NCBI GenBank assembly: GCA_028275925.1
Contig: JAPWTS010000003.1
Location: forward strand, 1-64,000
Length of the DNA stretch: 64,000 nt
DNA from: Thermofilales archaeon
GTDB lineage: Archaea > Thermoproteota > Thermoprotei > Thermofilales > Thermofilaceae
Reading direction: 5' to 3'
The translations under genes and the position numbers were made by a program. Positions 4,964 through 63,158 of the stretch are shown piece after piece (the first letter of the stretch is position 1; each line of letters begins with the position of its first letter). The notes beneath the pieces are model-generated. The model was given only the letters and a program-made list of their open reading frames with translations. It ran no database searches and had not been told where the DNA came from.

Positions 4964-6409
4964 ATGGTCTCCTTGAGGAAGCTAGAGGATGTCGTGTGGG
5001 AGATACCTACAAGCTACAAAAAGGGCATGCGCGTGCCAGCTAGAATCTTCGCTGACGAGTACCTGCTCCAGAAGATGCAGAGCGACTTAACGCTAGAGCA
5101 GGCGGCGAACGTGGCGATGCTGCCCGGCATCTACAAGTACTCCATCGTGCTACCCGACGGCCACCAGGGCTACGGCTTCCCCATCGGAGGGGTTGCCGCG
5201 TTCGACGCGGAGGAGGGGGTTCTCAGCCCGGGCGGCGTGGGCTACGACATCAACTGCGGGGTTCGGATACTCCGGACAGACTTGAGGTACGAGGACGTCA
5301 AGGACAAGCTGCCCGAGCTCACCGAGCTGCTTTTCAGGTACATACCCTCGGGCTTGGGCTCCCGAGGCCGCATCAGCTTGAGCAAAAACGAGCTGGATAG
5401 GGTGCTGGCTGAGGGCGTCGAGTGGGCGGTCGAAAGGGGTTACGGGTGGAGCGAAGACCCGGAGTTCATAGAGGAAAGGGGTTCGATGGAGGGGGCCGAC
5501 CCCTCGAAGGTTTCGGATACGGCTAAGGAGAGGGGAAGGGAGCAGCTCGGCACGCTGGGAAGCGGGAACCACTTCCTCGAGGTGCAGGTCGTCGACAAGA
5601 TATACGACCCGAGAGCGGCCGCCGAAATGGGGATCACGGAAGTGGGCCAGGTCACTGTGATGATCCACACCGGCTCCCGAGGGTTGGGGCACCAGGTGTG
5701 CAGCGACTACCTGAGGGTGATGGAGGTGGCGGTGAGGAGGTACAACATGCCGCTGCCTGACCGAGAGCTGGTGTCGGTGCCTACGAAGAGTCGAGAGGCT
5801 GAAGACTACTTCGCTGCGATGAAGGCGGCGGCGAACTTCGCGTGGGCTAACAGGCAGCTGATCACCCACTGGGTGAGGGAAGTCTTCAGCAAGGTTTTCG
5901 GCAAGTCGGCTGATGAGCTGGGGCTCCACATAGTGTACGACGTCGCGCACAACATAGCGAAGCTCGAGGAGCACGTGGTCGATGGGGCTCGCAAGCTCGT
6001 GTACGTGCACAGGAAAGGCGCTACGCGTGCCTTCCCGCCAGGCCACCCGCAGGTGCCGAGCAGGTACAAGGGCATCGGGCAACCGGTCTTGATCCCCGGC
6101 TCGATGGGGACCGCCTCCTACATACTTGTAGGGACGACGAAGGCTATGGAGATAACCTTCGGCTCCGCTCCCCACGGCGCCGGTCGCGTGCTGAGCCGAG
6201 AAGAAGCCAAGCGCAGGTACAGGGGTAGCGAGATCAAGAGCTCGCTGGAGAGCCGCGGCATCGTGGTTAGGGCAGCGAGCATGGCTGTCGTCGCGGAAGA
6301 GGCTCCCGGCGCCTACAAGGACGTGGACCGCGTCGCGGAAGTGGCCGACAGAGCGGGGATGGCGAAGAGGGTCGTGCGTCTCGTGCCGATAGCCGTAGTG
6401 AAAGGCTGA
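4964..6409 (+). CDS. rtcB: RtcB tRNA-splicing RNA ligase
   Basis: RtcB joins 2',3'-cyclic phosphate (or 3'-phosphate) and 5'-OH RNA ends with GTP and Mn2+; in archaea it seals tRNA exons after intron removal. Visible motifs are [30 protein letters not shown] (metal Asp and Cys), [24 protein letters not shown], the distal ligand region [23 protein letters not shown], and HGAGRVLSR with the guanylated His. The length, 481 residues, is normal and there is no intein. ATG 4964 is the start because the TATA box CTTTTTATG overlaps the earlier ATG at 4931. Archease lies upstream. Confidence 0.95.
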
Positions 6410-6678
6410 TCAGCCACCTTCCCTTTTCTTTTTCTGATTATTGGAGGCGCGCGCGTGCGCTCCGCTTCGTCCGCGCGCTCTCGACTACGCGCTGGCGAAC
6501 CCTCCCTACCTTCCGCAATTCGCTCGCCTAGCTCCGCTGGAGCATTCTCTATGGCATCTTCGCGTATTCTCTATCCTTTTCTTTAACTTTCCGTTTAGAA
6601 AAATTCACTTTCAGGCTTCTTAACATCGAATTTATAAAGCCCCGGTTCGCCTTAGGCCCGTGGGCCGCGGAAAACGCG

Positions 6679-8094
6679 GTGGTAGCGGGCGCGGTGAGGG
6701 GGCTTGAGCCTCGGGCCCTTGAGCTGGAGGTTGTCCCGTTGAACGCTTGGGCCCGGCTCCTCCTGGAGCTTTGTGGTGACCCCCGCACCGGCGGGGGGAG
6801 ATGGGCCCAAGCTTTGCAGAGGGTGCGGGTGGTGAGGACGGACACGCTCCGCCTGCTCACCACACCCGAGCTGGAAGATTTCCTGCGGCGCGTCGGCGAC
6901 GCTACCGCGCGCTTGATCAACATGGAGAGCTACCGCCGCAGGCGCCTGTTCTTCGAGGCGGGAAGGATCGATTACAGCTGGATGAGCGCGTGGGTGCGGC
7001 GGAGGGCGGAGTACTACAGCGTTTACAAGCTGCTTGGTTCGATGAACTTCCACGAAGCCTGCCGCTTGATCGGCGATCAATGGAAGAGCTTTGTGGGGTT
7101 GCTGAAGGCTGCTAAGGAAGGGAAACTGGAGCCTTGGCAGAGGGTGCAGCCGCCTGGCTACAGGAAGCGCGACGGTCAGCGTATACCGATCGTCGTGGTG
7201 AGGTTCGACAACTACAGGATCGACCTCGAAAAGAGGGTGATTCGCTTCGGCTACTGGAACGTGAGCATACCGTTCAAGGGGAAGCCCCGCTGGTTGACAA
7301 GGCCGGGCGCGAAGCAGGGTCGGCTAATCATCACCTACGATCCTGCGAAGAAGCGCTGGTACGCCCGAATCAGCGTGGAGGTGGTGCTCGAAGGGAAGCT
7401 CGGCAACAGCGGCTTGAAGGCTGGCGTCGATCTGGGTAGGGAGAGGCTCATCGCGCTCGTTACGGAGCCGTTGGACGAGAAGGGTGAGGGCATAGCGCTA
7501 CTGTACCGCGGCGGACCGCTGAAGAGCGACTGCTTCTACTTCGAGCGGAAGATCGCCGAAATCGACAGGATGCTGTCCGACCCGAGATCGGAGGAGGTGG
7601 ATAGGGCTGTGCTGTGGGAGATGAGGCGGAGGCTTTACAGCAAGATGAGGAAGCGTAGAGAGCAGATCTTCGCAAATGCGGCGGCGCACTTGGTCAAGAT
7701 GTGCGAGGAGCACGGCGTGGCTGTGCTGCTCCTCGGCTACCCGCGCGGCATCGCTCAGGATAAGCCGGGGAAGGGTAACACGAGCATGTGGAGCTACCGG
7801 AGGCTGGAGCGGCGCATAGCGGTCGCGGCGGAGAACCGCGGCATACCTGCCTTCGAGGTTCCCGAAGATGGTACGTCGAAGACTTGCGCCCGCCACGGGT
7901 GCGAGGTTCAGCGGGGGCCGAGGGGGTTGGTTCGCTGCCCCCACGGGCATGTAATGCACGCAGACTTGAACGCCGCCATGAACATCTTAGCGCGAGGTGG
8001 AGGCAAAGTACCGATGCGAGTGAAGGTGCTCAGCTTCATACCCCCAGCGAGCAAGGTGATCGCGGTCAACGTGAAGAGCAGCAACCCCGCGTAA
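6679..8094 (+). CDS. tnpB: TnpB-family RNA-guided nuclease, copy 1
   Basis: TnpB is an RNA-guided RuvC nuclease carried by IS200/605 elements. The N-terminal helical domain (TPELEDFLRRVGDATARLIN) is followed by the beta-rich part (GYWNVSIPFKGKPRW, RLIITYDPAKKRWYARISV). RuvC-I is KAGVDLGRERLIALV, with catalytic Asp. The RuvC-II position reads VLLLGYPRGIAQDKPGKGN, with no glutamate. Then come VPEDGTSKTC, a zinc ribbon (CARHGCE...CPHGH) and RuvC-III HADLNAAMNIL. It is close to the copy at 34810. The leaderless-position GTG at 6660 gives a 15-codon frame only, so GTG 6679 is the first usable start in the TnpB frame. Upstream module sequence and frame therefore disagree, unlike in copy 2. Confidence 0.88.
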   Translation: MVAGAVRGLEPRALELEVVPLNAWARLLLELCGDPRTGGGRWAQALQRVRVVRTDTLRLLTTPELEDFLRRVGDATARLINMESYRRRRLFFEAGRIDYSWMSAWVRRRAEYYSVYKLLGSMNFHEACRLIGDQWKSFVGLLKAAKEGKLEPWQRVQPPGYRKRDGQRIPIVVVRFDNYRIDLEKRVIRFGYWNVSIPFKGKPRWLTRPGAKQGRLIITYDPAKKRWYARISVEVVLEGKLGNSGLKAGVDLGRERLIALVTEPLDEKGEGIALLYRGGPLKSDCFYFERKIAEIDRMLSDPRSEEVDRAVLWEMRRRLYSKMRKRREQIFANAAAHLVKMCEEHGVAVLLLGYPRGIAQDKPGKGNTSMWSYRRLERRIAVAAENRGIPAFEVPEDGTSKTCARHGCEVQRGPRGLVRCPHGHVMHADLNAAMNILARGGGKVPMRVKVLSFIPPASKVIAVNVKSSNPA

Positions 8095-8121
8095 AGGCGG
8101 GGTAACCCGGATGGCGCGCGC
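8085..8121 (+). ncRNA. Right end / putative omega-RNA 3' end of element 1
   Basis: This segment follows the last tnpB codons. It forms the hairpin CCCCGC-gtaaag-GCGGGG and ends at GGATGGCGCGCGC. The same 3' block occurs after tnpB copy 2 (36217-36254) and, degraded, at 38217-38231. In IS200/605 elements the guide RNA is made from the 3' end of tnpB through the right end, and the next 16-20 nt act as guide. By that rule the guide would be read from position 8122 onward, into the 3' end of rps7. Confidence 0.5.
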
Positions 8122-8130
8122 TATTGGAGG

Positions 8131-8721
8131 CTACCTCGCTGAGAGAGCTATCCTTTCTATCTCCTCCTTCCTCCTCAGCGCGTAACTGGAGGGGTCGCCG
8201 TAGGCCGCCGCTACTATTTCGTCCGCCAGGCACTCCTCGATGGGCTTAGGGTTGTTAAACGCCGCTAGGCGCGCCCCTTCGCATATGAAACGCAGCGCCA
8301 AGTCCACCCTCCTCTGAGGCGAAACGTCCACCGAAACGTAGTAGAGAATGCCGCCGTAGATCACGCGCGTCACCTCCTCCCTAGGCGAGGCGTTCTCTAT
8401 CGCCCAGACCAGAACCTGCACAGGGTTCTGACCGGTTTTCAGCTCCACGAGCTCGAACGCTCTCTTAACGATGTTTGTCGCCAGGAACTTCTTCCCAGCG
8501 TTTCTGCCGGGCCGCATAAGCTGGTTTATGAGCCTCTCCACGATGGGGACTTTCGCTTTGAGGAAACGAGCCTTCGCGTGCCTACCCTCCGTGTGCGGCA
8601 CGAGCACCGGCTTTAGGCATATGTACGGCTCTAAGCTTCTGTCGCGCACTTTTACCTCGCTCAAATCCCACTTGCCGAACAGGAGTACGCGCTTTCCGTC
8701 GAGCGTCGTCAGCTCGCTCAC
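8131..8721 (-). CDS. rps7: 30S ribosomal protein S7
   Basis: S7 nucleates the head of the small subunit and touches tRNA at the E site. The archaeal form is clear: [59 protein letters not shown] and the C-terminal [14 protein letters not shown]. Length is 196. The start is GTG 8721, about 30 nt after TATA AGTTAAAAG. It stands alone here rather than in a str-like operon. The right end of IS element 1 lies 10 bp past its stop codon, in convergent orientation. Confidence 0.95.
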
Positions 8722-22994: not shown

Positions 22995-23558
22995 GTGCGC
23001 CGCGCGATCGCTGTACTGGTTACCGGTATGCCCGGTAGCGGTAAGTCGGTGTTCTCCGAGGCGGCTAGGGAGCTGGGCGTGCCGGTAGTGTCGATGGGCG
23101 ACGTGGTGAGACTCGAGGCGGCGAAGAGGGGGTTGGGCCAGGACGCGAAAGCTATGGCTCAGCTCGCGAGGGCTTTGCGGGAGGAGAGGGGGGCGCACGC
23201 CGTGGCTGAGCTAACCCTCGAGCGCACCCCTCCAGCACCCGTAGTCGTCATAGAGGGGGTTAGGAGCCTGGAGGAGGTGGAGTTTTTCAGGAAAGCGTTC
23301 GAGAAGGTAGTCGTGGTCGCGATCCACAGCTCCCCCCGGACGAGGTTCAGCAGGCTGAGCGCGCGGCGCAGGGAGGACGATCCGAAAGGGTGGGAGGAGT
23401 TCGTCGAAAGGGACAAGCGGGAGCTGGCGATGGGGATCGGGGCGGTCATAGCTTTAGCCGACTACGTGCTCGTCAACGAGAACGTGAGCAGGGAGGAGTT
23501 CTTGCGCTTGTGTAAAGAGTGGCTCAGCCGGATGCTGGCGCGCGCCAGCGGGGGTTAG
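22995..23558 (+). CDS. UPF0200-type P-loop NTPase (dephospho-CoA kinase-related)
   Basis: Walker A is TGMPGSGKSVFSEAARELG, followed by VPVVSMGDVVRLEAAKRGL and VVIEGVRSLEEVEFFRKAF (Walker B-like), with the lid region FSRLSARRREDDPKGWEEFVERDKRE. This matches the archaeal UPF0200 family, related to adenylate and dephospho-CoA kinases. Its true substrate is not established. It starts at GTG 22995 with GGGAGGCG just before. Length 187 is typical. It is convergent with the SPOUT-like gene. Confidence 0.8.
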   Translation: MRRAIAVLVTGMPGSGKSVFSEAARELGVPVVSMGDVVRLEAAKRGLGQDAKAMAQLARALREERGAHAVAELTLERTPPAPVVVIEGVRSLEEVEFFRKAFEKVVVVAIHSSPRTRFSRLSARRREDDPKGWEEFVERDKRELAMGIGAVIALADYVLVNENVSREEFLRLCKEWLSRMLARASGG

Positions 23559-23593
23559 ACTCGCGCTTTTCTGCCCCTCTCGCACCCGTCGTT

Positions 23594-23633
23594 GTTCCGG
23601 CAGCCCCACGGAGCAGCCTCCATGGTCCGGAAC
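23594..23633 (-). other. 14-bp hairpin between convergent genes
   Basis: In the 126-bp gap between two convergent genes the minus strand forms GTTCCGG/CCGGAAC enclosing CATGGAG-gctg-CTCCGTG. One pair of the inner stem is G-U in minus-strand RNA but a mismatch in plus-strand RNA. That hints at a minus-strand transcript, for example a 3' UTR or small RNA. I see no TATA box for it. Confidence 0.35.
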
Positions 23634-23684
23634 GCGCGCGGTGCCGGGTCCCCAGGCTCTCCCCGAGCATCATCTCCGTGTCCG

Positions 23685-24200
23685 CTAGGGTGCGCCCGGC
23701 GCGCGGTAGCCGACTTCCGTGCGCGCACGCTGGGCGCCAACGAGCGTTCTCAACAGGTACAGCGAGATCGCGGCAAGACCCGTTGCTCCAACATCCTCTT
23801 CGATCCCGTCCGGGTGGACGGCTATCCCCAACTCGAGCTCCCTTTTCGTGAGCCCCGGCTCCGCGCCCCCAAACACCACCATGACTTTCCCCGACGCGCC
23901 TTTCACCGCTTCCGAGACAGGCATGGGCGCGTACTTGCGCGGGAGAACTAGGAGAACCTTATCCGGTTTCAGAACCTCGATTGCGTCGGGAAGGTCGGGC
24001 AGGTAGATGAAGGCTCGATCGAGCTTGAGCGCAAGCTTCTGAGCCTCTGGGACTCCAGCTTGGGCGGCGCTCCCAACGGCTTTTGTCACGACGAAAACCT
24101 TGAAGCCTAGGCCGTAAACGACCTTCGCCACTTCGACAACGCGCTGCTGAGAGTACACGTTATGCAGCAGCGGGATAACCTCCACCCCGGTGTCCGTCAC
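23685..24200 (-). CDS. SpoU/SPOUT-related protein of the RecB-annotated archaeal family
   Basis: This 171-residue protein has the look of a small SPOUT-type knotted methyltransferase: PLLHNVYSQQRVVEVAKVVYGLGFKVFVVTKAVGSAAQAGVPEAQKLALKL, VLLVLPRKYAPM, and KVMVVFGGAEPGLTKRELELG, near the SAM-binding knot. Homologues are often annotated as SpoU-related or RecB-family protein (COG4080). The substrate is unknown. GTG 24200 is leaderless: TATA TATTTAAAAG lies about 26 nt upstream, inside the last codons of the methyltransferase gene. Confidence 0.6.
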   Translation of the reverse strand: MTDTGVEVIPLLHNVYSQQRVVEVAKVVYGLGFKVFVVTKAVGSAAQAGVPEAQKLALKLDRAFIYLPDLPDAIEVLKPDKVLLVLPRKYAPMPVSEAVKGASGKVMVVFGGAEPGLTKRELELGIAVHPDGIEEDVGATGLAAISLYLLRTLVGAQRARTEVGYRAPGAP

Positions 24201-34470: not shown

Positions 34471-34809
34471 CGCGCGCTAGACCGAAAAGTGGAATGACGC
34501 GCCTATGCGGAGGAGAGAGCGCGCTCTGAAGTACCCCGTATCGCTCTACGCGCCTGAGAATCGGAAATACGCGCCAGCGCGCGCTACCCTGCACCGGGCG
34601 TGCTAGACCCCTAAACCCGATATTCTCTTTAATTTTTTCCGGCGCTCGGGACAAAACCGTTTTGTCCGCGCGCTTTCGCCCGCCTAGCGGCGCCTTCTCT
34701 ATAGCTGCCAGAGTATTCTCTATTCTTTTCTTTAACTTTTCGATTAGAAAATTTTACTTTCGGTCTACTCTGGGAAAGCTTTATAAACCTTGGTTTCGCC
34801 TGGAAACTC

Positions 34810-36228
34810 GTGAGCCGCGCCTTGGAGCGCGCGGTGCAAGAGCGTGTTGCGGAGGGTCTCGTCCCGTTGAACGCTTGGGCCCGGCTCCTCTTGGAGCAAT
34901 TTGGTGACCCCCGCACCAGCGGGGGGAGTGGGGCCCGAGCGGTGCAGAAGGTGCTGGTGCAGCGGACGGACACGCTCCGCCTGCTCACCACGCCCGAGCT
35001 GGATGATTTCCTGCGGCGCGTGGGAGACGCGACAGCCAAGCTGATCAACATGGAGAGCTACCGCCGCAGGCGCCAGTTCTTCGAGGCGGGGAAGATCGAC
35101 TGTAGCTGGATGAGCGCTTGGAGCCGCCGCTTCACTGATTACTTCGAGATCTACAAGCTTCTGGGCTCGAAGAACTTCGCTGAAGCCTGCCGGCTGATCG
35201 GGGAGCAGTGGAGGAGCTTCGTTGGTCTTTTGAAGGCGGCTAAGGAGGGTAGGCTGGAGCCTTGGCAGAAGGTGCGCCCGCCGGGCTACAGGAAGGATAG
35301 GGACGGGCAGCGCGTGCCGATCGTCGTGGTGAGGTACGACAACTACCGCGTCGATTTGGAAAGGAAGGTGATTCGCCTCGGCTACTGGAACGTGAGCATA
35401 CCGTTCAAGGGGAAGCCCCGCTGGCTCACCAAGCCGGGCGCTAAGCAGGGCCGCTTGATCATCACCTACGATCCCGCGAAGAAGCGCTGGTACGCCCGAA
35501 TCAGCGTGGAGGTTACGCTGGAGGGGAGGCTCGGCGGCGGCTTGAAGGCCGGCATCGACCTTGGCAGGGAGCGCTTGATCGCGCTCGTCACGGAGCCTGT
35601 GAATGAAAGCGGCGAGGGCGTCGCGCTGCTTTACCGTGGTGGGCCTTTGAAGAGCGACTACTTCTACTTCGAGCGGAAAATCGCCGAAGTCGATAGGATG
35701 CTGTCTGATCCCAAGCTCGAGGAGGCGGACAGGTGCGTGTTGAAGGAGGTTCGGAGGCGCTTCTACGAGAGGAGGAAGCGGCGGAGGGATCAGGTCTTCG
35801 CCAACGCGGCGGCGCACTTGGTCAAGATGTGCTTGGAGCTCAACGTGGGCGCGCTGCTCCTCGGCTACCCGCGCGGCATAGCGCGAGACAAGCCCGGTAA
35901 AGGGAACACGAACTTGTGGAGCTACCGGAAGCTGGAGCGGCGCATAGCTGTTACAGCGGAGAACCGCGGCATACCGGTTTTCAAAATCCCAGAGGACGGC
36001 ACATCGAAGGTTTGCGCGAGGCACGGCTGCGAGGTGGTTAGGAAGCCTAGAGGGTTGGTCAGGTGCCCCTACGGGCACGCGATGCACAGCGACGTGAACG
36101 CGGCGATGAACATCCTAGCGAGAGGCGGAGGGAAAGTGCCGGCGCGAGTGAGAGTACGAAGCTTCATACCGACAGCGAGCGGAGTCATCGCGGCCAACGA
36201 AAAGAAGAGAAACCATAACCCCGCTTAA
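34810..36228 (+). CDS. tnpB: TnpB-family RNA-guided nuclease, copy 2
   Basis: It is a full-length relative of copy 1, with the same domain order and only scattered substitutions. RuvC-I is KAGIDLGRERLIALV, the RuvC-II position ALLLGYPRGIARDKPGKGN again lacks Glu, then IPEDGTSKVC, zinc ribbon CARHGCE...CPYGH, and RuvC-III HSDVNAAMNIL. GTG 34810 lies 26 nt after the TATA box, the same place where the TFB copy starts, and the frame is open from there. It is the better candidate for an active gene. Length 472. Confidence 0.9.
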   Translation: MSRALERAVQERVAEGLVPLNAWARLLLEQFGDPRTSGGSGARAVQKVLVQRTDTLRLLTTPELDDFLRRVGDATAKLINMESYRRRRQFFEAGKIDCSWMSAWSRRFTDYFEIYKLLGSKNFAEACRLIGEQWRSFVGLLKAAKEGRLEPWQKVRPPGYRKDRDGQRVPIVVVRYDNYRVDLERKVIRLGYWNVSIPFKGKPRWLTKPGAKQGRLIITYDPAKKRWYARISVEVTLEGRLGGGLKAGIDLGRERLIALVTEPVNESGEGVALLYRGGPLKSDYFYFERKIAEVDRMLSDPKLEEADRCVLKEVRRRFYERRKRRRDQVFANAAAHLVKMCLELNVGALLLGYPRGIARDKPGKGNTNLWSYRKLERRIAVTAENRGIPVFKIPEDGTSKVCARHGCEVVRKPRGLVRCPYGHAMHSDVNAAMNILARGGGKVPARVRVRSFIPTASGVIAANEKKRNHNPA

Positions 36229-36254
36229 AGGCGGGTAACCTGGATGGCGCGCGC
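36217..36254 (+). ncRNA. Right end / putative omega-RNA 3' end of element 2
   Basis: It has the hairpin CCCGC-ttaaag-GCGGG and the terminal GGATGGCGCGCGC, as in element 1. Identity with element 1 stops at 36254, which defines the right end. A guide, if made, would be read from 36255 onward into the GC-rich flank. Confidence 0.5.
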
Positions 36255-36576
36255 CGCGCGCTGTATCCTGCTTGCAGTGCGCGCCGTGACGAAGAGCAGG
36301 GAAGCTAGAGAGCTCGTGCAAGTGCTCGCCGCGCTCCCAGCGCAGGCTAGCGTTCGCAGGCAGCAAAATACGTAAGGTCGCCGCTTGAGAGGCGACGAAG
36401 TACCGAAGCCCGCCGAGTGTTCCTTCAAAGCGGCGGGGCATTTCAAGGGAGCTCTACGGAAAAGAGGAAAATGCAACCGAAAAGGGACCTGTGCACGAAA
36501 AACTGCTTGATCTTGCGGGAAGCCTGCCCACCCCCTAGCAAAAACCTTTAAACCCCCTGGTTCCGCTAGCGTTACA
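36255..36576. other. Gene-free stretch with two strong hairpins
   Basis: No supported gene lies between element 2 and tRNA-Asp. Two stems stand out: GTCGCC/GGCGAC at 36377-36396 and CCCGCCG/CGGCGGG at 36409-36437. The tRNA promoter (ACCTTTAAACC) is at about 36543-36553. The hairpins could belong to a small RNA, but I see no promoter for one. Confidence 0.35.
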
Positions 36577-59869: not shown

Positions 59870-59904
59870 GTAGATGCCCCTAGAGAAGCGCGCGCACGCT
59901 ATAG

Positions 59905-60010
59905 CACCGCTGCGTATTCTCTATCCTTTTCTCTAACTTTCCGTTTAGAAAAGATCACTTTCAGGCTTCTCAACGTCGAATTTATAAAGCTCCCGCTCGC
60001 CTTTCGACCC
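59905..60010 (+). mobile_element. Dispersed leader/promoter module, copy D
   Basis: Here GTATTCTCTATCCTTTTCTC, TTTAGAAAAGATCACTTTC and TATA GAATTTATAAAGC (59978-59990) stand in the same order and spacing as at the two tnpB genes and the tfb-like gene. Up to GTG 60011 and some 100 bp beyond it, the sequence matches copy A best. No intact tnpB follows; the GC-rich stretch and the broken TnpB-like gene come next. The left hairpin is less clear than in copies A and B. Confidence 0.7.
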
Positions 60011-60160
60011 GTGAGCCGCGGGAAAAGCGCGGCGGGAGCGCAAGCGGTGTGGGGGCTTGAGCCCCGAGCTCGAAAGCCCCCGCCCGCTGGGCGCTGGGGT
60101 GGGGGCGCTCGACCTTTTGCTGGAGGCGGCTCGTTGAGCTGGCTCAACTGGCTTCGCTGA
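60011..60160 (+). CDS. Leader ORF of module D
   Basis: From the leaderless-position GTG 60011 a frame of 49 residues stays open to TGA 60158-60160. Its first part (SRGKSA..., WGLEPRAR) corresponds to the N-terminal extension of the TFB-like protein and to the out-of-frame region before tnpB copy 1. It ends inside the palindrome array (SLSWLNWLR). It is probably a remnant of whatever gene the module once drove, not a functional protein. Confidence 0.3.
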   Translation: MSRGKSAAGAQAVWGLEPRARKPPPAGRWGGGARPFAGGGSLSWLNWLR

Positions 60161-60223
60161 GCCAGCTCAACGAGACCTCGCCCCGCTGAACTGGCTCAAC
60201 GAGCTCCGTTGAACCGGCTCAAC
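60133..60223 (+). repeat. Array of four 16-bp palindromes
   Basis: Four imperfect copies of the palindrome GTTGAGCyGGCTCAAC start at 60133, 60156, 60185 and 60208. The start-to-start distances are 23, 29 and 23 bp. Copies 1 and 2 are also complementary to each other over 14 bp and can form one long hairpin. The pattern suggests binding sites for a dimeric protein or foldback structures of a transposon end. It is unlike anything else in the window. Confidence 0.8.
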
Positions 60224-60344
60224 GGGCGTACCACGCTGTAGTAAAGCCTCGAGAGCCTCCTACCACACCACAGCACGCTTACTCCGCCGGAATTCTCCCG
60301 CGAGCCAGCGCGAGAAAATTTTTATTTAGGCCCTCAGAAGCATT

Positions 60345-60563
60345 CCCCGGTGAACGCGCCGAGCGGGATGACAGTGAACCCCAGCCGGCGGCTCGGCGCG
60401 GGATGGGGCGAGGACGGGGGGATGAGGGGGGCTCAGCGCACACCAGGCAGCGCACGGCGGCACTACACGAGAGCGCGCTAGCGCGGCGCCCTCCAGCGAC
60501 GGAGCGCCAAGGGGCGGAGAGCCCAGCTCGGAGCCTGCTCGGCCCGAGAACAAATATTTTTTT
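60345..60563 (+). ncRNA. Candidate structured RNA between a TATA box and a T-run
   Basis: A TATA-like TTTTTATTTAGG (about 60318-60330) predicts a start at 60345-60352, and seven Ts at 60557-60563 could end the transcript, giving about 210 nt. Inside, CGCGCCGAGC (60355-60364) pairs perfectly with GCTCGGCGCG (60391-60400) around a loop containing GATGACAGTGAA, and further GC stems follow. A leaderless 43-codon ORF from GTG 60350 is also possible. I looked for RNase P and SRP RNA consensus elements without success. Confidence 0.4.
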
Positions 60564-60602
60564 CCCCGGATCCGCCCAACCAACCCGCCCCGCTACCCAG
60601 CT

Positions 60603-61200
60603 GAAAGACGCTGGCCCCCCCGAGGAGGGGGGGTTGGGCGAGGGCGCGGGGGCGCGCGCGGCCGCGCCTCCGCCGCCTAGGGGCGTGAGCCCCGAAACGG
60701 CGGGCCGGGCCCCGTGAGGGTCGGCGGGGAGGGAGCGTGGTCTCCCGAGCCGCCGGCCAGGCGGGTCCGGGAGCTCGGGCTGGGGCTGGGCTCCGAGCGG
60801 GCCCGTGGGAGCGCGCCGCCCGGGAGGCGCCTCCCACTTCGGCCCGAGCAGGCGTAGGGGGCGTGGAGGCTGGCAGGAACGCGGAAAGGCCCCCGAAGGA
60901 TGAGCTGGACCGGTGAGGGCCGAGCCGCGAGGCTGTGAGGCCCGAGGGGTGAAGGTGAAGTCGAGCTCGGGCGAGCGCGCGAAGGCCGCCCGCCCGGGAG
61001 GGCGGCAGAGGCTCCCGCTCCCGCCCCGGGTGCGGGAGGAGGTGAGGCCGCCGCGAGGCGGCTGAGGGCGCCGAGGGGAGCGCCGCGCGCCCACGGCCCC
61101 GCGCGCTGGGAGCGGGGCGCTCCGCAGCCCAGCCGGCTCGGCTTGGGGGTGGTTCCGACCCCTCCCACATTCCCGCCCCCAGCGGCGGCCACCCCTCGTG
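60603..61200 (+). repeat. GC-rich tandem hairpin array upstream of the broken TnpB-like gene
   Basis: About 600 bp of extreme GC content holds one short stem-loop after another, separated by purine-rich spacers such as GAGGTGAG. Clear cases are GCCGCCC/GGGCGGC (60985-61006), CTCCCGC/GCGGGAG (61012-61038) and GCCGCC-GCGA-GGCGGC (61047-61062, with a GNRA-type tetraloop). Long open frames on the minus strand here are low-complexity Pro/Arg/Ala/Gly and do not look like protein. The GCGA hairpin recurs at 62572-62589. Confidence 0.6.
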
Positions 61201-62487
61201 AGGGGTGGGATCGTGGGAGGGGAAAAGAAACGAAACGGGACCACCCCTGGGCCGGGCAGGCGAGTCTTCAAACTGAAAACAAGTAAGAGTATAAAAGGAA
61301 AGTTAAAAGAGTTCTACAATATGTTAACATCATTCATTCGATTGGTTGAAATACCGAAAAGCGCACTACGCTACAGGGAGGAGTGGGAGAACAGCTTCCT
61401 TCAGACCGTCCACAGCCGCCTCGCTACCGGCAAGTGGCTGAGACCGGCGAAGAAGAGGAAGAGGGGGAGGAAGAGCGGGAAGCACATCCCGAAGAGGCCG
61501 CCGTTCCTGCTTACGGTGCGCTTTATTCTACAGAGCGGGGAGCCGCGTGGTCGCACGGATGCTCCGGTGGTCGTGGACTTGCGCAAGAGAGAGGTCAGGA
61601 TTCCTTGCGTCGGCGTGGCGGTGCCTATTCCGGAGCGGCTGGCGAGGGCGCTGGAGGAGGAGAACGGGTTGGAGCCGCGGCCCGAGTTCGTCGTGCAGCT
61701 GTGCAGCGACGGTCGGCTGAGACTCATCGCGAAGCGGGCTCCGGAGCCGCGCGCTCGAAGAAGTCCCGCTAAGGGTGATCGCGGTCGACGAGAACTCTCG
61801 GTACGGCTTCGTGGTGGCGGTCTTCGACTTCGACGAGCGCGGCTACTGCCGCCTGACGCGCTTTGAAATTTTCAAGCCGCCGAACCACGGCCTACCGCGA
61901 GAAAGTGGTTTCTGCGCTGAAGAGCTACGCGGACAAGCCCGCCGAGGCGCTCGAGAGCGTGCGCGAGCTTCTACCCTTCATTCCAACGCCGAGCGACGCC
62001 GAGAGGCTGGCGCGCGCGGCTCTCGCTAGGAAGAAAAGGCTGAACGACGCCTTCATCGAAACACTTGTAGCTAGGGTGCGCGAGCTCGTTAGGGAAGCGC
62101 TCCAAGGGGGCGCCGCCGCGGCCATCGTGGTGGACCCTATTAACAGCGAGAGCCTGCGAGGGACGCCGATGCAGGGGACGCTGCTGCGCGCGGAGGAGGC
62201 TGGAGAACTTGGCGAGGTACGAGGGCGCGCACTTCGCGGAGCTGCGGGCTTCAGGAAAGCTGTGTCCCCTCTGTGGCGCAGAGGGGGTGGAGAACGGGCA
62301 CAGGGTGTTCAAGTGCCCAAGCTGCGGGATCGTATGGGACCGCGACCGAGCGGCGGTGGTGAACCTGGTGTTGCGGTACTTAAAGGCGCTATACAGGGAG
62401 GAGTGCCAAGACGCAAATTTGATAAGGTTAGCGGACGCGATGCGAGCGTGGCTGAAAAGGCACCCCGGCTTCCTGCTGCGCGCGTAA
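61198..62487 (+). pseudogene. Frameshifted TnpB-like gene of a second lineage
   Basis: Four consecutive segments in changing frames read as one TnpB-like protein. Segment 1 has FKLKTSKSIKGKLKEFYNML and PEFVVQLCSDGRLRLIAKR. Segment 2 has RuvC-I VIAVDENSRYGFVVAVFDFDERG. Segment 3 has LPFIPTPSDAERLARAALARKKRLNDAF and a RuvC-II-like IVVDPINSESLRGTPMQGTLL. Segment 4 has RRLENLARYEGAHF, a zinc ribbon CPLCG...CPSCG and RuvC-III WDRDRAAVVNLVLRYL. Frame changes fall near 61770, 61870 and 62187. It is clearly distinct from the two intact tnpB genes. Confidence 0.75.
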
Positions 62488-62636
62488 GCCCCGTTCCCGA
62501 GGGGGCGGGGGTCCGCCATCGCGGCCCGTCCCCCGAAGGGGCCCAGCGCGCGGGCCAACCCGTGACGATGAGCCCGCCGCGAGGCGGGCGAGGAGGCTCC
62601 CGCCGGTTAGCGGCGGGAGAGCCCCCAGAAGGGGCG
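62488..62636 (+). repeat. GC-rich tandem hairpin array downstream of the TnpB-like gene
   Basis: Right after the zinc-ribbon end of the broken gene come five stem-loops: GCCCC/GGGGC (62488-62506), CCCC/GGGG (about 62530-62541), GCCCGCC-GCGA-GGCGGGC (62572-62589), CTCCCGCC-ggttagc-GGCGGGAG (62597-62619) and GCCCC/GGGGC (62621-62635). The place fits the guide-RNA region of a TnpB element. The GCGA hairpin and a CTCCCG stem beside it also occur at 61012-61062, in swapped order. Confidence 0.6.
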
Positions 62637-62639
62637 GGG

Positions 62640-63158
62640 ATGCGGGCGCGCGCGCTAGAGAAGGTCGCTCTCGGAGGAACGTTTTCTTTCTTCCACCCTG
62701 GTCATCGGCATCTGTTAAGGCAAGCCCTTGAAATGGGGAGAACGGTAGTGGTGGGGGTTACGAGCGACGAGTTCGCTCGCTCCTTCGGTAAAGCGCATCC
62801 CATCGAGCCCTACGAGGTTCGCGCGTTACGCGTGCTGAGGTACTGCCTCCGCAAAGCTAGGAGCGGACAGCGCATCGTGATAGTCCCCTTGGACGACGTC
62901 GGCGGTCCAGCCTCCAGCGACCCCTCGGTGGAAGCTATAATCGCCACAGAGGAGACCGCCGCCCGCGCTATCGAGGTTTCGCTGAGCCGCGCTAAGCGAG
63001 GGTTGAAGCCAGCGATCGTAGTCGCCGTGGAGCCTGTCCTGGGGGTCGACGGCCAACCAATATCCAGCACTAAGCTCTGGCGGGCTTACGCTAGCGCGCA
63101 TCGGAGCGGCGGAGCTCTCCGCCAGCCCGGCGAGCCCACCCCTCGATCAACTTCCTAG
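62640..63158 (+). CDS. coaD: Phosphopantetheine adenylyltransferase, archaeal type
   Basis: This enzyme makes dephospho-CoA from phosphopantetheine and ATP. It is a nucleotidyltransferase with the site VALGGTFSFFHPGHRHLLRQALEMG (T/HxGH), followed by VVVGVTSDEFARSFGKAHPIEPYEVRALRVLRYCL and the ISSTK motif in VDGQPISSTKLWRAY. Archaeal members are about 150-170 residues; this has 172. ATG 62640 is chosen because the conserved part begins 10 residues later; the frame is open far upstream through the TnpB remnant. The tail after KLWRAYASAHR overlaps the convergent membrane gene by 68 bp. Confidence 0.9.
   Translation: MRARALEKVALGGTFSFFHPGHRHLLRQALEMGRTVVVGVTSDEFARSFGKAHPIEPYEVRALRVLRYCLRKARSGQRIVIVPLDDVGGPASSDPSVEAIIATEETAARAIEVSLSRAKRGLKPAIVVAVEPVLGVDGQPISSTKLWRAYASAHRSGGALRQPGEPTPRSTS

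Follow-up and report, generated by a model that had tools for sequence, protein, structure and literature searches.

The locus at 59.9–62.65 kb of the window, as we call the whole 64,000-nucleotide stretch of Thermofilales DNA analyzed here, is probably a mobile element of the OMEGA type, in which TnpB is accompanied by a 3′ omegaRNA, from a diverged lineage of TnpB found in this archaeal family. It lies at the 5′ end of coaD, and its RNA could be served in trans. According to this reading, the element inserted there with a 9-bp target duplication. The 3′ RNA would be transcribed, would bind TnpB made in trans from intact copies, and would carry the adjacent coaD flank as a guide. TnpB would then cut alleles without the element, and repair of the cut allele would copy the element back. 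The initial annotation had listed a promoter module, palindromes, a TATA/T-run unit, GC hairpin DNA, a split TnpB-like gene, and 3′ hairpins, all of which exist. One reading it offered was an RNA-guided element of considerable size, in partial decay, that belongs to a second TnpB lineage and has structured RNAs to its left and right. As anatomy this stands: a single insertion produced a target duplication, the protein of the intact sibling has a TnpB/Cas12f fold, the 3′ RNA extends to the right end, and elements of sister genomes show the same order. The RNA-guided activity of TnpB and the 3′ RNA, and with it their roles as nuclease and guide, we infer from sequence.

Insertion at coaD

The genome that contains the window comprises 1.95 Mb in 142 contigs. 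A 9-bp direct repeat, CTAGAGAAG, brackets the locus (59880–59888 and 62655–62663), and the insert of 2,766 bp is placed within codons 3–5 of coaD. Two species of the same genus (G003 and G001; loci L265 and L269) have the site without the element. In these, coaD begins immediately after the stop codon of hsp20, and the joined flanks matched as one piece. By comparison with them, the coaD start before the insertion was ATGCCC-CTAGAGAAG-GTCGCT (MPLEKVALGGTF). On these comparisons the locus is a single insertion and not unrelated debris, because there is one pair of ends with one 9-bp duplication and two species have an unoccupied site. Both ends could be placed for 24 elements of this genome; a duplicated stretch of at least 9 bp lies beside the ends in nine of them, versus 9 of 552 mismatched flank pairs.

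The right copy of the duplication also provides the first bases of the putative guide. The coaD gene (62640–63158, forward strand) is cytidylyltransferase-like (PF01467, 42.4 bits) and has its native start in L265 and L269. Here, its frame is opened by an ATG in the right end of the element, which holds GGGGATG in frame with coaD (M-R-A-R-A-L-E-K-V). This essential gene may thus have regained a start codon from the element. Units lie exactly at the starts of two housekeeping genes, coaD (window 62640) and a pyrD-like gene on contig C47 (L051, 2934–3307), and therefore could alter the expression of those genes.

Left End and R2 Leader

The left end and promoter module occupy 59889–60069 (forward strand), with a TATA box at approximately 59981–59988 and a leaderless GTG start of a TnpB N-terminus at 60011. 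The module proper (59899–60069) is present in about 35 copies in the genome, where it precedes TnpB genes of three subfamilies and stand-alone RNAs. The aligned copies share an archaeal-type promoter, ATCGAATTTATAAA, and some 23 nt further on the GTG that opens the TnpB proteins (MNRGES..AVRGPEPRALELE). Read from this alignment, the module is the promoter and leaderless GTG start of TnpB genes. It is followed by a palindrome cluster (60127–60224) of two tandem 46-nt units with a perfect 17-bp arm (100% complementary), which is partly common to contig C55.

The next part is a leader, R2 (60319–61088, forward strand). It has its own TATA box (60319–60328), a start GTGAACGCGCC at 60350, a T-run (60557–60563), and GC hairpins up to 61088. 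From R2 to TnpB there is a further GC-rich stretch of hairpins (61089–61261, forward strand), which is unmatched in other copies. The hairpin DNA at about 60600–61200 is 75–86% GC. The long GC block folds beyond chance (z −3.24, 0/20 shuffles), and the 210-nt TATA/T-run unit alone (about 60319–60563) folds no better than shuffles (z −1.0).

R2 occurs in five copies, the first 85 nt of which are nearly invariant. Two stand before TnpB genes (in the window and on C104), and three before members of an unrelated, LAGLIDADG-like family (C33, C55, and C132). It is not a protein extension, since three of the five copies stop after around 12 codons; a protein reading of its 5′ part was rejected on the same ground. 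We regard R2 as best seen, from its distribution, as an exchangeable promoter–leader module common to the LAGLIDADG-like gene family, and its role probably concerns expression. A search of 60 relatives (DNA) and of viral contigs (by pattern) gave no convincing match to R2. The LAGLIDADG-like family is multi-copy and widespread in the class, with the R2 leader upstream in this genome (L011, 1501–3029; L003; L125). The R2-linked protein has no Pfam match, so that its identification as PaRep2b is unsupported; only a weak LAGLIDADG_3 match was obtained, for a single relative, and it fell short of the cut-off (E 0.0034). Readings of short motifs as RNase P or a group I intron were dropped after zero model matches. 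Rfam gave no usable match; no intron model matched the window or sister elements, even with E values of up to 1 allowed, and a group I intron core, as expected of an IStron, was not found in the element RNA.

TnpB Gene and Protein

The TnpB-A gene (61262–62485, forward strand) differs from the intact copy on C119 by six indels that shift the reading frame. The segment 61262–62655, which comprises the gene and the 3′ hairpins, recurs on C119 with 86% identity and without the middle part; this sibling has an intact TnpB and lacks R2. Substitutions between the two copies (dN 0.09, dS 0.33) show past constraint on the window gene. Purifying selection acts on the intact TnpB copies, with dN/dS around 0.2–0.3. 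The copies fall into subfamilies A (window, C119, C105, C47, and C73), B (C3, C11, C13, C60, C115, and C137), and C (approximately 13 copies). A search for loci related to TnpB-A and -B in the genome_contigs collection gave no match.

The zinc-ribbon domain of TnpB (PF07282, Cas12f-like TNB domain) was detected in the window fragment (35.8 bits) and in the C119 protein (32.1 bits) above the cut-off of 26.3. The structure of the C119 protein was modeled with 15 relatives (pLDDT 77, pTM 0.74). The closest solved structures are those of AsCas12f (E 8e−9), SpCas12f1, ISFba1 TnpB, and other Cas12/TnpB proteins, and intact TnpB-A is thus predicted to have the Cas12f/TnpB fold with a RuvC fold. Conservation extends to three acidic positions. 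In the RuvC site, D232 and D419 are invariant. The RuvC-II position is Asp348, and a conserved glutamate (Glu353) lies five residues on. We count the Asp in place of Glu at RuvC-II in A and B against the OMEGA-type reading. In the C-type proteins (L058–L066, around 13 copies, dN/dS about 0.19), Gly replaces the RuvC-II Glu (LLLGYPRG), yet they are apparently conserved. From its sequence, the C-type active site would be either altered or dead.

3′ RNAs and Stand-Alone Units

The gene is followed by R3 (62486–62654, forward strand), a candidate omegaRNA scaffold of 169 nt. The right end of the element is the end of R3, and unique flank follows. R3 folds better than all of 200 shuffles (z −3.05, 0/200), and its copies are too similar to show any covariation. 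Its position, sharp end, and structure describe a structured RNA that reaches from the tnpB 3′ end to the right end, with the flank as a would-be guide. The same arrangement is found in ISDra2, where the reRNA consists of the 3′ end of tnpB, the right end, and approximately 16 nt of flank (PMC8612924), and archaeal omegaRNAs of TnpB elements have been described (PMC12558985). We infer that R3 is a guide-type RNA with an intact structure beside a broken nuclease gene.

Downstream of the B-type TnpB genes lies a different RNA, X. At least 16 promoter–RNA units stand alone: 12 with X (353–380 nt from promoter anchor to end), three with R3 (C45, C32, and C137), and at least one with Y, which like X is related to R3. 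These units share their promoter side and right end with the larger elements, as do MITEs and PATEs. Over 19 copies of X, 96.8% of cells in the structure are paired, versus at most 53% for slid structures, and five pairs show double changes, versus 2.3 in shuffles; a single X sequence folds no better than shuffles. A common terminal stem pairs the GC-rich 3′ end with an internal GC-rich strand.

Elements of Relatives

TnpB-A is expanded in genomes of the same family, with at least 20 copies in G015, 13 in G012, and 7 in G014. Their elements have a left-end hairpin (GTAGCAATGCTAC), a small ORF that is helix–turn–helix-like by eye, TnpB, and a 3′ RNA of around 150 nt ending in GATGAGCCAGGCGCGG. 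In several of the relatives' copies, a block of 75–83% GC with its own conserved RNA core lies upstream of TnpB. Two sister genomes between them have at least five elements with the order 5′ GC-rich block, TnpB, and 3′ RNA. This recurrence does not extend to R2, which is unlike their 5′ RNA; homology of the two was rejected on sequence, with no nhmmer match.

The conserved core, CAGTGCTTCCCCGAGAAAACTGG..hairpin..TGCACTCTCGGGGAAAAGA, is found upstream of TnpB in G012, G015, and G009 (L185, 1090–1250; L187; L194; L200). It could possibly form an H-type pseudoknot, in which AGTGC/GCACT is combined with CCCCGAG/CTCGGGG. In G009, the sequence of the core hairpin is exchanged and its pairing kept. 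Rfam gave no match for this core.

An RNA model of the sister 3′ RNA finds 26 copies in G012 and 39 in G015, the weaker of which are perhaps remnants. Several strong copies are without TnpB, and three sites share a common promoter–RNA junction. Similar stand-alone promoter–RNA units are present in this second genus also. In the window's genome, among the sequences searched, the best matches of the model are two Y RNAs on C105, which are borderline (E about 0.004). R3 was not found by the model, and we count this against the OMEGA reading, as we do the near-identity of the R3 copies, which leaves no covariation to be seen, and the unlikeness of R2 and the sister 5′ RNA.

Mobility

Neither a Y1 transposase (PF01797) nor a serine recombinase (PF00239) was found in the genome of the window (G000, 95% complete). 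IS605 transposition has been described as free of target duplication (PMC8612924). Target duplications together with the absence of TnpA are atypical of IS605 elements, and this too counts against the OMEGA reading.

Insertions can be compared at the same sites in the closely related genomes G012 and G015 (L193, L195, L191, L182, and L188). One is accompanied by an 11-bp duplication (L193), and others replaced 113, 314, 356, and 482 bp of the target. An interpretation of the length differences at shared sites as RNA-only derivatives was dropped; the sequences are uninterrupted target DNA, with deletions at insertion. A DDE transposase is not expected to lose hundreds of target bases. If a nuclease made a staggered cut, repair of the break would account for the duplications as well as the deletions of 113–482 bp, and we propose this as a hypothesis. 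A CC is present at the right junction in five of seven targets of G012 and G015; as to a TAM, elements of the window's genome share no motif outside the left end.

Alternative Explanations

The rival that we take most seriously, while thinking it unlikely, is that the elements are MITE-like passengers, moved in trans by some transposase that makes duplications of around 9 bp, and that the stand-alone RNAs are internally deleted, non-autonomous copies without RNA function. Ends and duplications are indeed common to all three TnpB subfamilies and the stand-alone units, internally deleted copies exist (L281), and archaea often carry MITEs and PATEs (PMC3119063, PMC3718332). However, the stand-alone units retain the promoter and the RNA at a shared clean junction and do not look like random deletions. 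The structure-keeping changes in X, the purifying selection on intact TnpB copies, and the target deletions at several insertions, which are unusual for a transposase, also argue against passengers. A further reading, which we put forward tentatively and think unlikely, is a transposase-free TnpB lineage that spreads by nuclease-linked break repair, with duplications of 9–11 bp or target deletions as its traces, together with a fleet of stand-alone, promoter-driven omegaRNA genes that serve as guides in trans and outlive and outnumber the nuclease genes.

It is very improbable that the locus is debris or a set of nested insertions, that is, independent pieces that landed side by side without unity as a whole. 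The broken TnpB gene, the occurrence of R2 independently before other genes, and its absence from the C119 sibling would fit such a history. The single pair of ends, the single target duplication, and the empty site in two species speak against it, as does the fact that five or more elements of sister genomes have their parts in the same order; moreover, the parts that are found alone are clean promoter–RNA units. The debris that the initial annotation had allowed for is thus disfavored, and of the nested insertions it had suggested there remains an exchangeable R2, present in four other places. Slightly less probable still is a TldR-like regulator, in which host promoters would be repressed by nuclease-inactive TnpB proteins with the help of the stand-alone RNAs. 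A regulator derived from TnpB is known in TldR (PMC13418256). The C-type proteins lack the RuvC-II Glu and the A and B types have Asp there, each genome holds many guide-type RNAs, and some units lie at gene starts such as those of coaD and pyrD. Against this, the elements are mobile and present in many copies, and their would-be guides are the flanks of the insertion sites.

Relation to Known Systems

The TnpB/Cas12f-fold protein is common to this element and to IS200/IS605 and IS1341-type elements, and the structured RNA at the tnpB 3′ end resembles that of the ISDra2 type. As in IS1341-type elements, there are many TnpB copies without a linked TnpA, a situation known from other archaea (PMC3119063). 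Unlike IS200/IS605, we see here no Y1 transposase or serine recombinase gene, target duplications of 9–11 bp or target deletions where IS605 has none, stand-alone 3′-RNA genes behind the same promoter as TnpB, an extra 5′ leader with its own promoter, and Asp at RuvC-II where canonical RuvC has D/E/D. Archaeal MITEs and PATEs (PMC3119063, PMC3718332) are likewise short non-coding elements that share ends with larger ones and have target duplications; they keep the ends only, whereas the units here keep a promoter and a conserved structured RNA. TldR proteins (PMC13418256) are also TnpB-derived, with altered RuvC sites and guide RNAs, but the elements here are mobile and multi-copy.

A further parallel is offered by the stand-alone (trans) omegaRNAs of IscB in Ktedonobacter, likewise guide-type RNAs without an adjoining nuclease gene; here, the nuclease is TnpB, the host is archaeal, and the RNAs have a recognizable promoter of their own and shared mobile ends. 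The units would represent a natural case in thermophilic archaea, in two genera, of TnpB-type guide RNAs as independent genes with their own promoters. The polymorphic insertions of G012 and G015 make the products of insertion directly readable. Two questions come within reach of experiment: by what means TnpB-only (IS1341-type) elements move if they lack TnpA, and whether guide RNAs from other loci of the genome can serve TnpB.

Other Elements in the Window

A diverged X-type RNA lies at 23538–23705 (reverse strand), where a nearby promoter module was not found; it has 72% identity and the conserved GGGGCAGAAAAGCGCG motif. At 34699–36261, a diverged module and a C-type TnpB form a third element, for which a clear duplication was not found and which ends 346 bp before a tRNA-Asp gene. 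The second element (6400–8131) consists of the module and an intact C-type TnpB with a 9–10 bp duplication, TATTGGAGG(C); G001 and G003 have this site without an insertion.
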